DNA of 40,508 nucleotides from Nanobdellota archaeon (GTDB lineage: Archaea; Nanobdellota; Nanobdellia; SCGC-AAA011-G17; PNOQ01): assembly GCA_018829185.1 (NCBI GenBank), contig JAHJUI010000008.1, positions 1-40,508 of the forward strand, read 5' to 3'. Within the stretch, counting starts at the first letter, position 1; each line of letters opens with the position of its first letter. The notes beneath the pieces were generated by a model, which was not told the DNA's origin, did not search any database, and saw nothing but the letters and a program-made list of their open reading frames with translations. The position numbers and the translations under genes are program-made. Below are positions 19,565-23,774 of the stretch, in pieces.

Positions 19565-19573
19565 CGTTTTTTT
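19565..19573 (+). repeat. Target-site duplication, left copy (CGTTTTTTT)
   Basis: Nine bases immediately outside the left inverted repeat, identical to 23766-23774. Low complexity (seven T). Confidence 0.7.
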
Positions 19574-19595
19574 TGCATTGTTGCATTAACGGGTG
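19574..19595 (+). repeat. Left 22-bp terminal inverted repeat
   Basis: Perfect inverse match over all 22 bases to 23744-23765. The match stops at the next inner base on each side, as expected of true element ends. Confidence 0.9.
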
Positions 19596-19614
19596 TTAAT
19601 TAACATAAAAAAAA

Positions 19615-19758
19615 TTATTTCTTCTTAAGTTTGTTCCATCTGGCAGTTTTACACTTCGGACAAATTAAAGGTCTCTCATCTCTCCTTTTCATCCAAGTGT
19701 GGTCACACTTTTCACATTTGTAAACTTCTTCTTTTCCAAACACTTTTGCAATAGCCAT
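19615..19758 (-). CDS. Small zinc-ribbon protein
   Basis: This 47-residue ORF starts M-A-I-A-K-V-F-G-K and contains one four-cysteine ribbon: C15-E-K-C18 and C33-P-K-C36, separated by D-H-T-W-M-K-R-R. The tail is W-N-K-L-K-K-K. Similar tiny zinc ribbons are common beside transposases in archaea; a role in DNA or RNA binding is inferred. It is divergently oriented to the broken transposase and shares a 150-bp control region with it. It lies wholly inside the transposon, so it is element-encoded. Confidence 0.75.
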   Translation of the reverse strand: MAIAKVFGKEEVYKCEKCDHTWMKRRDERPLICPKCKTARWNKLKKK

Positions 19759-19908
19759 AATTTATAGAAATCTTAGAACTATTTAAACCTTACTATTTAG
19801 GTTAACCTAATAGCCGAAACATTTAAATAGTAATATTACCTATTAAGTATACCTAATAAGTAAATATAAAGAGGGCTTTCGCCCCCTAGATTCACCGTCG
19901 CTAAACAA
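19759..19908. promoter_or_regulatory. Divergent control region of the transposon with repeats and a palindrome
   Basis: Between the zinc-ribbon gene and the transposase lie two opposed TATA-like elements (GGTTTAAATAG on minus, near 19780-19790; AACATTTAAATAG on plus, 19818-19830). There is a 14-bp perfect palindrome TTAGGTTAACCTAA (19797-19810) and three near-direct repeats of ACCTA(A/T)TA(A)G at 19805, 19838 and 19851. A small hairpin GGGC-TTTC-GCCC (19873-19884) sits in the transposase leader. These could be operator sites for an element-encoded regulator such as the zinc-ribbon protein (inference). Confidence 0.5.
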
Positions 19909-20840
19909 ATGAAATCCAATCATCTAAAAGAGAACAAGTATAAAAATCTTTGCTGTCCTAATTGTAAAAGTAAACTTGTTAAAAAGAATGGAAGAAGAAA
20001 GACAGAAAACAGAGGTTTAATTCAAAGATATCAATGTAAGAAATGTAATTATAGATTTACTTATGATGATGGATTTTTCAGAATGAGAAACAATCCTAAG
20101 AAAATAACTTGTGCAATTGATTTATTTTATCGTGGAACTTCAACAAGAAAAATTCAAGAACATTTCCAATCTTTTTATCCACACAATTCTCATAATTCTA
20201 CAATTTATCGTTGGGTAATTAAATATTCTTTAATGATAAGTAATTTCACAGATGGCTTAAAATTGAAAGTTGGAAAAGAAATTCAAGTTGATGAGATGGA
20301 ATATCATAGACGTCAAGAACATAAGAAAAAGGGGTTGTCAAAGATTGATTTATTGATTCTATTGATTGTCAAACTCGTTATATGGTAGCTTCTAAGTATG
20401 CTAAGAAAAGAGAGAAGATTGAATTGAAAGAAGTTTTAACAAAAGTAAAATACAAAACAGAAGGCTATGTAACCACAATCACAACAGATGGTTATACTGC
20501 GTATGAGAACCTTGTTAAGAAAACTTGGGGCTATAATAACAAAGAAGGTAAATATAAAATCATACATAATAAAGTTATAGCTTCAAGAGGAGAAGGATTT
20601 AATTTATTTATTGAAAGGTTGCATAATTCTATTCGTGAAAGAACTAAAATCTTTAGGGGATTTCATGGAACAATAGAATCTGCCCATACAATTATGAAAG
20701 GATATGAGATATTTTACAATTTCATAAGAAAACATCAGGCGATAAATTGCTGTCCTTATGAATTGGCTACTGATATTAAATTAACTAACCCCAATAAATG
20801 GGTTGAGTTGATTTGGCTAAGTAGATTACAAAATTATTAA
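19909..20840 (+). pseudogene. DDE transposase with N-terminal zinc ribbon, disrupted by frameshift and nonsense
   Basis: The N-terminus has C-P-N-C-K-S...C-K-K-C-N-Y-R-F, a helix-turn-helix region and then a DDE domain resembling IS6/IS240-type or IS1-like transposases. The catalytic residues are D in I-Q-V-D-E-M, D in T-T-D-G-Y and E in F-I-E-R-L-H-N-S. The first frame runs 19909-20388. The rest of the domain continues one frame over, to 20840. Adding one A to the AAA run at 20340-20342 restores the frame but gives K-D-stop-F-I-D, where relatives have K-D-W-F-I-D, so a TGG to TGA change is also present. Two lesions in four codons suggest decay. A slippage product or a start at ATG 20382 is less likely. 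Confidence 0.8.
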
Positions 20841-20846
20841 ACCCTA

Positions 20847-22694
20847 TCATCTATTCTTAAGTTTTTTATAACCAATACCAGATAGAATTAAAATCATAAT
20901 CACTGCGATTAAAACCCATAACCATGTTAAATCTCCTTTTTCTTCTCCTGCTTCGCTTTCAGGACTTTTTTGAGTTGTTTCTTCTCCTGCTTCGCTTTCT
21001 TGTTGTTGAGAAACAATTTCTTCATGTATTGTTTGTATTGTAAAGTTTGCTTTATTTCTCCATGTTGTATCTATTGAATTTAACTTAACTAAGACATCAT
21101 AATAATTATCTCCAGAAAGTTCAAATTTCTTTTCTTGTCCGACTGAAAGTGTGGCTTCTTGTGTTTCAGAAGAAATACTTATTTTTGCATTTGTTTCAGT
21201 AACATCTTCAACTTTAAATGTGTGAGAAATATTTTCTACTTTAAAAGACACCTTCCAATTTTTATACATTAGTTTTTGATATCCTTTATTTAATTCATCT
21301 TCTTTTGGTCTATAATTAGGATACCCTCCACCACCTGAACTTGAAGAAGTTGTTGTTGTAGCTACGGTACTTACAATTAAAGTTCTTGTTGAACTGTTGC
21401 CCACATTTCCGGCGATATCAGTACAATTTATACTCCATGTATGTGTAGCAACACTTAAAGAAGAATTATACATTCCATTTGTCCCACCACTATTATTTAC
21501 ATTTATTAGTGTGTTAATAATAGAGCCATCAAAAATTAAACTACAATTTGAGATGGTTTGGTCATCTGAGACATTAAAGGTAAAATTATAGGCACTTGTT
21601 GTTGAGGAAGTTGAATCTGCTGGTGCAATTAAAGTGATAATAGGATTAGAACTGTCCAAAGTTATAGTTCTTGTTGAAGTAGTGTTTGAGTTTCCTGCAT
21701 CGTCTATTATTGTTGTATTATAAGTATATGCTCCATCAGGCAAACTTGTCCAATTAATTGTTCTTGTTCCATCTGTGTAAGTTGTTGAATTAACTTGCCC
21801 TGTTGAATTATATAATAAGAAAGTAATATTTTTCTCGTTTGTTTCAGTAACAGAAACATTAACATAAACATTAGACTGAGAAACATTTGCATTATCGCTT
21901 TCTGTTCCTGTTCCATAATCAATTAAAGGGTATGTTGTGTCCAAGGTTATAGTTCTTGTTGAAGTAGAATTACTATTTCCGTAAGTATCATTTACAGTAG
22001 CATTAAAATAATAAACCCCATCAGAAAGCCCTGTAAAATTAATAAATAAAGGTGAGGTTGCAGAAGTGCTCGAATTAATTTGGTCATTTGTTGAATTAAA
22101 TAATCTTGCGATAATTGTATCAATAACTCCATTATCTGTTGCAGTTACATTCACTGCAATATTAGACCTTGAAAGATTTGAATTATCTGTTTCTGAAGGA
22201 GAAACAAATTCTATTGAGGAAGGTTCAGTTGTATCATTAATAGTTACAGAAATATTTGTAGTTTCTGTTCCTGTTGCATTAGTGGTGGCAACACTTAAAT
22301 TATAATTTCCTGGATTAGTTGCAGTTAAATTAAACCAAAAATATTTCCAAGTTAAATTCATAACAAGTCCATCATTATCCCAACTTAAAATGGTGCTTGT
22401 GTTTGTAAATGTATGAACTCCTGCATCAGTTCCATTTGAATCTGCTAAAAAAGAAAATGTATTTGGGAAAGTAATATTTACCTGAGTTATGTTTGCGGTA
22501 TTTAAAGAATCAGTATTATTAACAGTTATGTTATAAACAAATCCAACATCTTCATTTACAGAATAAGATGTTCCTCCTGATGATGTGGTAATAACATGGG
22601 CAGCAAGGACAAAAGATATAGTTAAAACAATTCCTAAAAACAAAATTAAACTCGCAAAAGCTATTCTATCATTCTTTATCACACTCTTTTTCAT
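20847..22694 (-). CDS. Ig-like-repeat surface protein carried by the transposon
   Basis: The 615-residue product has a signal peptide (about 8-32) and an N-terminal beta domain. Four tandem bacterial-Ig-like repeats of about 90 residues follow, each closing with T-S-T-R-T-I-T-L-D or a similar sequence, then a Ser/Gly linker with S-S-G-G-G-G-Y, a further beta domain, an E/Q-rich duplicated stalk (E-S-E-A-G-E-E twice) and a C-terminal transmembrane helix (about 590-610). It is very rich in N-x-T/S sequons, typical of glycosylated archaeal envelope proteins. It lies inside the transposon, so it is cargo or was captured. It has its own promoter (22715-22730). Function unknown; adhesin or S-layer-related is inferred. 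Confidence 0.75.
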   Translation of the reverse strand: MKKSVIKNDRIAFASLILFLGIVLTISFVLAAHVITTSSGGTSYSVNEDVGFVYNITVNNTDSLNTANITQVNITFPNTFSFLADSNGTDAGVHTFTNTSTILSWDNDGLVMNLTWKYFWFNLTATNPGNYNLSVATTNATGTETTNISVTINDTTEPSSIEFVSPSETDNSNLSRSNIAVNVTATDNGVIDTIIARLFNSTNDQINSSTSATSPLFINFTGLSDGVYYFNATVNDTYGNSNSTSTRTITLDTTYPLIDYGTGTESDNANVSQSNVYVNVSVTETNEKNITFLLYNSTGQVNSTTYTDGTRTINWTSLPDGAYTYNTTIIDDAGNSNTTSTRTITLDSSNPIITLIAPADSTSSTTSAYNFTFNVSDDQTISNCSLIFDGSIINTLINVNNSGGTNGMYNSSLSVATHTWSINCTDIAGNVGNSSTRTLIVSTVATTTTSSSSGGGGYPNYRPKEDELNKGYQKLMYKNWKVSFKVENISHTFKVEDVTETNAKISISSETQEATLSVGQEKKFELSGDNYYDVLVKLNSIDTTWRNKANFTIQTIHEEIVSQQQESEAGEETTQKSPESEAGEEKGDLTWLWVLIAVIMILILSGIGYKKLKNR

Positions 22695-22714
22695 ACATTA
22701 ATCAATATATATTA

Positions 22715-22730
22715 TATATATAAAGGTTTT
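22715..22730 (-). promoter_or_regulatory. BRE/TATA promoter of the 615-residue surface gene
   Basis: Minus-strand AAAACCTTTATATATA sits 21-36 bp before the ATG at 22694, giving a near-leaderless transcript. The nested IS481-like element starts five bases further upstream, so the promoter is left intact. Confidence 0.6.
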
Positions 22731-22748
22731 GTTAGTGTTAAGTCCACT

Positions 22749-23609
22749 TCATAACTTAACATAAAAATTAATTGGAAAACCTTTAATCCCTCGATGAAAC
22801 CTCCTTTCATTAAACCAAATTCTCCATTCTTCTAATTTTCCATTAATCCAATGCTTGAATTTGCTTAACAAATTGACAAATTCTTCAGCCAAATTTCTTA
22901 TTGTTCTTTCAACTTTTCCCTTATCCTGCGGATAATAAGGGTGAGCGAAGATTGGCTCGCTTCCAAGATTTTGCCACCAGATTTTCCATTGTTCTCTGAA
23001 TTGGGGGCCATTATCTGAGAGAATCTTTTTAGGTTTAATCTTTGAACTACGCAAAACTGAAGTTAATTCTTCAGTTTTAGGGCAATGATCAAATAATTTT
23101 AAGCATATGATAAATCTTGAATAATCATCAATACAAACAAAAATGTAATATTTTTTACCTTCAAATATGAACTCTTTTAGATCTGCCTGCCAAAGTTCGT
23201 TTGGCTCCTTGGCACGAAAAAACTTCCATGTTTTAGCTTCATATTGATAGCCGTTTAATTTATGCTTCTTCAAAACGTTATTTATCGACGTTCTTGACAG
23301 CTGGAAGTTTTGAACACAAACCTCCATTTCTTCTCTCTGAAAACTAGGCAAATCCATTAATCCTTGCTGTATTCTTGCTGTTCCCCATTTGAACATTGTT
23401 CGCATGAACAAGATTGAGATTTCAACGTCTATTGTTATTTTTCCCTCTCTTGTTCTTGGAATATCTTCAAAATTTGAATTTAGTGTTTCTGAGCTCCAGT
23501 ACCAAACAGTAGTTCTGCTTACTCCAAAAACTTGAGCGACAAGTTTTTTAGGGTTGCCTTGCTTTACTGAATTGGTCATGAGCTTCCGTTCAACTGGATT
23601 GAGTCTCAT
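22749..23609 (-). CDS. IS481-like transposase (integrase-fold DDE)
   Basis: This apparently intact 286-residue protein has an N-terminal helix-turn-helix (about 20-45, V-F-G-V-S-R-T-T-V-W), a second helical domain, then an rve-type catalytic core. The core has the acidic triad in W-Q-A-D-L, L-S-D-N-G-P-Q-F and K-G-K-V-E-R-T. The tail W-F-N-E-R-R-F-H-R-G fits IS481/IS3-type transposases. ATG 23609 is preferred; a GTG at 23636 would add nine residues read from a palindrome. The stop lies inside the left inverted repeat, as is common for compact insertion sequences. Confidence 0.85.
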   Translation of the reverse strand: MRLNPVERKLMTNSVKQGNPKKLVAQVFGVSRTTVWYWSSETLNSNFEDIPRTREGKITIDVEISILFMRTMFKWGTARIQQGLMDLPSFQREEMEVCVQNFQLSRTSINNVLKKHKLNGYQYEAKTWKFFRAKEPNELWQADLKEFIFEGKKYYIFVCIDDYSRFIICLKLFDHCPKTEELTSVLRSSKIKPKKILSDNGPQFREQWKIWWQNLGSEPIFAHPYYPQDKGKVERTIRNLAEEFVNLLSKFKHWINGKLEEWRIWFNERRFHRGIKGFPINFYVKL

Positions 23610-23616
23610 GGCTGTT

Positions 23617-23634
23617 GGGCAGGATATCCTGCCC
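23617..23634 (-). promoter_or_regulatory. Perfect 18-bp palindrome in the transposase leader
   Basis: GGGCAGGATATCCTGCCC lies between a GAGGTG ribosome-binding-like sequence (just upstream on the minus strand) and ATG 23609, leaving seven bases to the ATG. In RNA it would form a stem of about 7 bp. It could gate translation, or be a protein site in DNA. The role is inferred. Confidence 0.5.
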
Positions 23635-23743
23635 ACCTCTTTTTAATGATTATTAATACGAATTTCTAGAAGAACTATTTTTCGGTTCTGTAAAGTGTTC
23701 AGTTGCACGCTTTACTTTACAGTTAGGAAATTTTTTATAAAAG

Positions 23744-23765
23744 CACCCGTTAATGCAACAATGCA
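23744..23765 (-). repeat. Right 22-bp terminal inverted repeat
   Basis: Reverse complement of 19574-19595 with no mismatch. Confidence 0.9.
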
Positions 23766-23774
23766 CGTTTTTTT
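23766..23774 (+). repeat. Target-site duplication, right copy (CGTTTTTTT)
   Basis: Identical to 19565-19573. Its last two bases overlap the TAA stop (23773-23775, minus strand) of the 416-residue protein gene. Confidence 0.7.

Follow-up and report, generated by a model that had tools for sequence, protein, structure and literature searches.

GG tips are a criterion for membership of the IS6 family of insertion sequences (PMC7986276, PMC6807381), whose members are reported to form cointegrates that are resolved by homologous recombination (PMC7986276, PMC6807381). IS6 elements make target duplications of 8 bp. In the published survey of the family, ISDsp3 is the only member named as bearing cargo (PMC7986276), and it has been argued that the archaeal members may need a family of their own (PMC6807381). 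Transporter insertion sequences (tIS) are characterized by one transposase, short ends and passenger genes unrelated to movement. Tn7-like transposons, which measure 14-29 kb, carry diverse cargo with many defence systems and nested insertion sequences (PMC8649781); the survey of these elements found no homologues in archaea (PMC8649781). IS481 elements combine an rve/DDE transposase with TGT...ACA tips, and most of them make 6-bp duplications. The reported range is 2-15 bp (PMC10045372).

The window, by which we mean the whole analysed stretch of 40,508 nucleotides (contig JAHJUI010000008.1, assembly GCA_018829185.1), belongs to a small archaeal genome (826,748 bases, 96% complete) from an order whose named members, as far as traced by contig, are labelled Woesearchaeota, Nanoarchaeota, Nanoarchaeia and archaeon GW2011_AR20, that is, DPANN archaea. 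It contains a real cargo transposon that is now broken (Table 1). With a probability of roughly 0.9, we regard this element as a decayed member of a family of cargo transposons of DPANN archaea. The family is widespread in these archaea and apparently undescribed: a search of the open full texts of PubMed Central found no description of cargo-bearing IS6-like elements in DPANN.

We could confirm all features that an earlier note on this DNA had listed for the element, namely perfect 22-bp inverted ends with a 9-bp duplication, a zinc ribbon, a broken DDE transposase and a 615-residue Ig-repeat surface protein. The ends are complementary at 22 of 22 positions, and the duplication is exact and lies just outside them. 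Within the window the 22-mer occurs at these two places only, even with up to three mismatches, and 100 shuffles yielded none. The transposase gene is read in two frames of the forward strand (19909-20388 and 20382-20840), with a one-base frameshift and an in-frame stop, and its C-terminal half matches Pfam DDE_Tnp_IS240 (29.1 bits, cut-off 27). Six bases separate its stop from the end of the gene for the surface protein, which has a signal-like N-terminus and a membrane anchor at its C-terminus. TATA-like boxes (read by eye) were found about 28 nt 5' of the start codons of the zinc ribbon, the surface gene and the 70-aa flanking gene.

Table 1. Features of the cargo transposon and of the insertion sequence nested in it (window positions).
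Feature	Position	Strand	Remarks
Left copy of 9-bp target duplication, CGTTTTTTT	19565..19573	.	
Left terminal inverted repeat, TGCATTGTTGCATTAACGGGTG	19574..19595	+	Motif also terminates the 47 delimited elements
47-aa zinc-ribbon protein, adjoins left end	19615..19758	-	Pfam Zn_ribbon_8 below cut-off
Zinc finger and DDE transposase gene, IS6-related, 9-bp clade	19909..20840	+	Broken mid-gene; relatives intact
Cargo: 615-aa Ig-like surface protein	20847..22694	-	Pfam Big_13 Ig-like repeats
Left copy of 5-bp duplication GTTAG, nested element	22731..22735	.	
Nested IS481-like insertion sequence	22736..23721	-	Tips TGTTAAGT / TGTAAAGT
295-aa rve-domain transposase, uninterrupted ORF	22749..23636	-	Pfam rve 1.6e-15
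Right copy of 5-bp duplication GTTAG	23722..23726	.	
Right terminal inverted repeat	23744..23765	-	
Right copy of 9-bp target duplication	23766..23774	.	Final two bases within the stop codon of the 416-aa gene, codon intact

The window genome yielded no further copy of the element, no other transposase of its clade and no intact one, and the exact 22-mer had no match among IMG/VR viral contigs. Since its transposase is broken and no other transposase of the clade was found in the genome, the window copy is probably a fossil, immobile now, and its current mobility is not supported.

Overlooked until now was a second insertion between the ends, an IS481-like element with tips of the TGT...ACA type (TGTTAAGT...ACTTTACA) and, as in IS481, a short target duplication. 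The best NCBIfam family for its transposase is IS481 (transpos_IS481), at 135.6 bits and thus below the cut-off of 224; its 5-bp duplication differs from the 6 bp of most IS481 members and lies inside their reported range. Without this insertion the outer element would measure about 3.2 kb, and the TATA-like box of the surface gene was left uncut by it. As the sole uninterrupted transposase inside the 22-bp ends, the nested protein could be taken for the enzyme that drives them, an idea to which we give next to no credence. Its own ends and 5-bp duplication contradict such a role. A relative in genome G063 (49% identity) stands between like tips with a 5-bp duplication, CTTTA, and without 22-bp ends, from which it follows that the nested element does not depend on the outer ones. 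Moreover, dozens of genomes in which this protein is missing have the 22-bp ends together with the zinc-finger DDE transposase.

The zinc-finger DDE transposase and its ends recur in relatives of the window genome. An order-wide end search (up to three mismatches) gave a match in 24 of 103 genomes, and the reversed control pattern matched none of the listed genomes. Pairing ends without a duplication criterion resulted in 12 pairs with a 9-bp duplication (11 exact, one at 8 of 9 positions), one clear pair without a matching duplication (L097) and a few ambiguous cases (L086, L104). By a transposase-alignment scan of genome contigs, 116 relatives were confirmed and 80 kept, nearly all labelled DPANN archaea. 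Intact transposase genes lie, for instance, at L093:3072-3980 and L080:3822-4718. We delimited 47 elements (1,134-6,922 bp, median 3,664) plus one split over three contigs. The duplication length of the family is 9 bp, for which part of the 47, found with the duplication in the search score, are less independent evidence than the criterion-free pairing. The ends are about 22 bp long, of the type TNCATTGTT...GGG, with the consensus TGCATTGTT, and start with T in 89 of 94 cases. In a class sample, 73 of 378 genomes had a transposase match at E <= 1e-60, a count that includes part of the sister clade described below. The complete genome CP010426 (GW2011_AR20) holds at least three elements; most host genomes are metagenome bins, and the host assignment of some elements rests on binning. 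One typical element (L168) stands on a contig that bears a bacterial label (CSMAG_44); wrong labelling or binning of a DPANN contig is the probable reason.

The check proposed in the earlier note, a search for end pairs around other gene sets, thus found such pairs; they are spaced by 1.1-6.9 kb, have 9-bp duplications and enclose different genes, as its reading of a cargo transposon had implied. Genes without a role in transposition are present in nearly all elements; in the window and its relatives they lie inside one pair of ends and within a target duplication that spans the unit. The smallest element with a full-length transposase measures 1,993 bp, compared with about 1.1 kb that a 300-aa transposase alone would need, and cargo is therefore the rule. 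L083 and L084 have proper ends and duplications and no transposase; they are non-autonomous cargo units, one of which carries a ThaI-like restriction enzyme and a methyltransferase.

Two elements in GW2011_AR20 stand end to end around one 9-bp sequence (L129:1786-5600; G048:C1 ~745,785-749,600). An intact element is followed by its copy of the 9-bp duplication and then by the end of a second, decayed element; the insertion appears to have struck the very edge of an older copy. In L167 a second end sequence (5624, element position 56) was found 56 bp inside the left end. It is the only internal one in the 47 elements, which gives no general support to the idea that cargo capture leaves such sequences behind. 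Both cases, together with the many chromosomal homologues of the surface protein (present in 77 of 103 genomes of the order), would fit a composite origin, in which 22-bp ends from two neighbouring insertions trapped a chromosomal surface gene that never moved as part of a unit. We consider this very improbable, because one 9-bp duplication brackets the whole window unit, 46 of the 47 elements are free of internal end sequences, and relatives of like layout have an empty site as well as a unit-wide duplication.

Movement as a unit is supported for a relative in genome G001, which belongs to another genus: the site is filled in G001 and empty in its congener G002. The element spans contigs C7, C12 and C11 (C7 and C12 overlap by 141 bp, the stretch from C12 to C11 is unassembled), and a matching duplication, CTATCTCAT, is present on C7 and C11. 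Its flanks, secE-nusG-L11 and a small gene adjoining ftsZ, are contiguous in G002. Joined via one duplication copy, the G001 flanks read ...TTTTTAAAGGTTTCTATCTCATTTATTTTC..., and G002 reads ...TTTTTAAAGGTTTCTATCTCTTATTTTTGG..., which defines the empty site at base level. The transposases of the window and G001 are 92-95% identical in amino acids and 87% in nucleotides, in comparison to 66% (protein) and 73% (DNA) for nusG and 57% and 70% for L11. This higher similarity of the transposase between the genera fits a transfer.

Comparison of the same two elements also shows replacement of cargo. They are 80% identical over 1,240 nt and thereafter share the right end only, and no relatedness was detectable between their surface proteins. 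Likewise, L173, L177 (both labelled Woesearchaeota) and L193 (Pacearchaeota) share 90% identity along the first ~1,295 nt, comprising end, leader and transposase, and then have only the last 24-76 bp in common; their cargo is radical-SAM/aminotransferase, ABC-transporter and DUF5667, respectively.

Several further observations concern the mobility part. At a run of eight G (L002 1944-1951) the G001 transposase loses its reading frame, either through real decay or through a homopolymer assembly error. A zinc-ribbon gene occupies the equivalent position in part of the family. Those of the window (19615-19758) and G001 (L002 1500-1700) are only about 45% identical next to their far more similar transposases, and the G001 zinc ribbon is similar to the one in GW2011_AR20; the mobility part, too, appears to be a mosaic. 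In both elements the promoter-like region is followed by a short hairpin ahead of the transposase start (window 19860-19900, L002 1790-1830). The hairpin sequences differ (GGGC..GCCC and AAGGGTG..CACCCTT), and a leader control of the transposase is possible.

The family resembles IS6 in its DDE_Tnp_IS240 domain, which a full-length relative matches at 34.2 bits (Pfam cut-off 27), and in ends with a common internal TGTT motif. The best NCBIfam match is transpos_IS6 with 62-83.5 bits, below its cut-off of 125, and transpos_IS1 reaches 31-64 bits, below a cut-off of 100. The N-terminal zinc-binding domain of IS1 / IS1595 (NF050000, cut-off 28) scored 33.3, 27.8, 27.8 and 22.1 bits in four relatives. 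Unlike IS6, the family has TNCATTG tips, a 9-bp duplication, an N-terminal zinc finger and cargo in nearly all of its members. We conclude that these are IS6-related cargo ("transporter") insertion sequences that depart from what defines IS6 in their tips, their duplication length and their model score. They share the simple build of tIS and differ from them by family-wide cargo in the DPANN elements, up to 5-6 kb, and its evident replacement on a constant backbone. From the Tn7-like transposons, whose diverse, defence-rich cargo and nested insertion sequences they recall, they are set apart by size (median 3.7 kb), by a single DDE transposase and by having no targeting module.

More distant transposases in the same genomes form a sister clade with IS6-like ends (TGAGCTGT... 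or GGTTCTGT...) and 8-bp duplications. Its 13 delimited elements (L227, L228, L231-L235, L237, L239, L240, L243, L246 and L131; 1.7-3.9 kb) bear cargo too, including restriction-modification genes in L233 and L240. In a maximum-likelihood tree, 41 transposases from 9-bp elements lie on one side of a branch (100/98) and the 12 included from 8-bp elements on the other, with a warning from the program about long branches between the two 8-bp subgroups. Duplication length is therefore a character of the transposase clade.

The window element is flanked by two clusters of surface-protein genes that share one strand. The earlier note had it inserted exactly at a stop codon, splitting a probably continuous operon. 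The first part stands, as the duplication reaches into the stop codon of the 416-aa gene without destroying it. For the second part, we looked for an uninterrupted junction of the 416-aa and 70-aa genes, which would be the empty site of this copy. The same family has homologues of the flanking genes, but there the two flanks are not adjacent, and no close relative with the same segment was found. In G004-G008, convergent or unrelated genes come after the 416-aa homologue, and not the 70-aa gene; in the relatives examined, the 416-aa gene is the last of an operon of its own, facing a convergent gene. In G003 and G005 the module of 70-197-382-305-114 aa is conserved, but it follows another 197-aa-like paralogue. 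A former single operon is therefore unsupported, and the TATA-like box of the 70-aa gene further argues against it.

Pfam scans of 123 cargo proteins identified DNA methyltransferase and restriction systems as the commonest class. About 18 elements carry a DNA methyltransferase (N6_N4 11, D12 3, C5 3, one Eco57I-type), and a named restriction enzyme stands beside it in six (MjaI-type twice, MvaI/BcnI, Bsp6I with Vsr, HinP1I, ThaI). The remaining cargo comprises Fic, toxin-antitoxin genes (ParE-type toxins, MazE-type antitoxins), SDH-type proteases, thioredoxin, ABC transporters, aminotransferase, radical-SAM enzymes, SAM methyltransferases, and CAP-domain and other membrane or surface proteins. 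Surface-like cargo was found in the window, in G001 (904 aa with a PRC barrel, L092) and in L137 (460 and 1,103 aa). With cargo this diverse, the proposed specialisation in envelope genes is not borne out; the idea of mobile surface genes finds support in the G001 relative, given its surface-protein gene and the empty site in the congener.

Many cargo proteins match no recognised family, and this, like the broken transposases of the window and G001, would be compatible with a lineage of selfish IS6-like elements in which the cargo is junk, caught passively and of no benefit to the host. We judge this unlikely: complete pairs of restriction and modification genes turn up repeatedly and independently, different backbones carry related methyltransferase genes (those of L160 in the 9-bp clade and L240 in the 8-bp clade are 76% identical), and the majority of cargo reading frames are long and uninterrupted. 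At somewhat better than even odds, we favour the elements as a main shuttle for adaptive genes in DPANN archaea, in which a constant cassette of ends plus transposase has an exchangeable slot that repeatedly takes up genes for restriction-modification, for surface proteins or for metabolism and conveys them across genera and lineages.

We propose that a transposase of about 300 aa, with an N-terminal zinc finger and a DDE domain of the IS6/IS240 type, would act on the ~22-bp ends and, by a staggered cut of 9 bp, insert the unit as a whole. The most likely course is that a dimer or tetramer of the transposase would pair the ends, join them to the target DNA and thus move everything in between; the DDE protein would catalyse the reaction, in a copy-in or cut-and-paste mode. 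The mobility part (left end, zinc ribbon and transposase in the window subtype) stays, while the DNA from the transposase to the right end is swapped for unrelated gene sets. Recombination within the transposase or the ends, or recruitment of the distal end of an adjacent element, would be a plausible, if unproven, route of exchange in view of the tandem elements in GW2011_AR20 and the inner end in L167. A repeat of 2-7 kb would suit the resolution of cointegrates by homologous recombination. In the window, the cargo is a single gene for an Ig-like surface protein, presumably expressed and useful, which has a promoter-like box to itself. In our reading, the transposase gene broke after insertion and the IS481-like element came to lie just upstream of this box.

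The two transposase clades offer a rare natural comparison, one transposase lineage with staggered cuts of 9 and 8 bp, and the elements exemplify how restriction systems in archaea can be carried by small units with a single transposase. For the largely unsettled question of how DPANN archaea, with their reduced genomes and dependence on hosts, acquire genes, the recognisable ends provide a direct handle, since they allow the limits of cargo in draft genomes to be set to the exact base. If the shuttle reading is true, part of the defence and envelope repertoire of the reduced DPANN genomes would be mobile.
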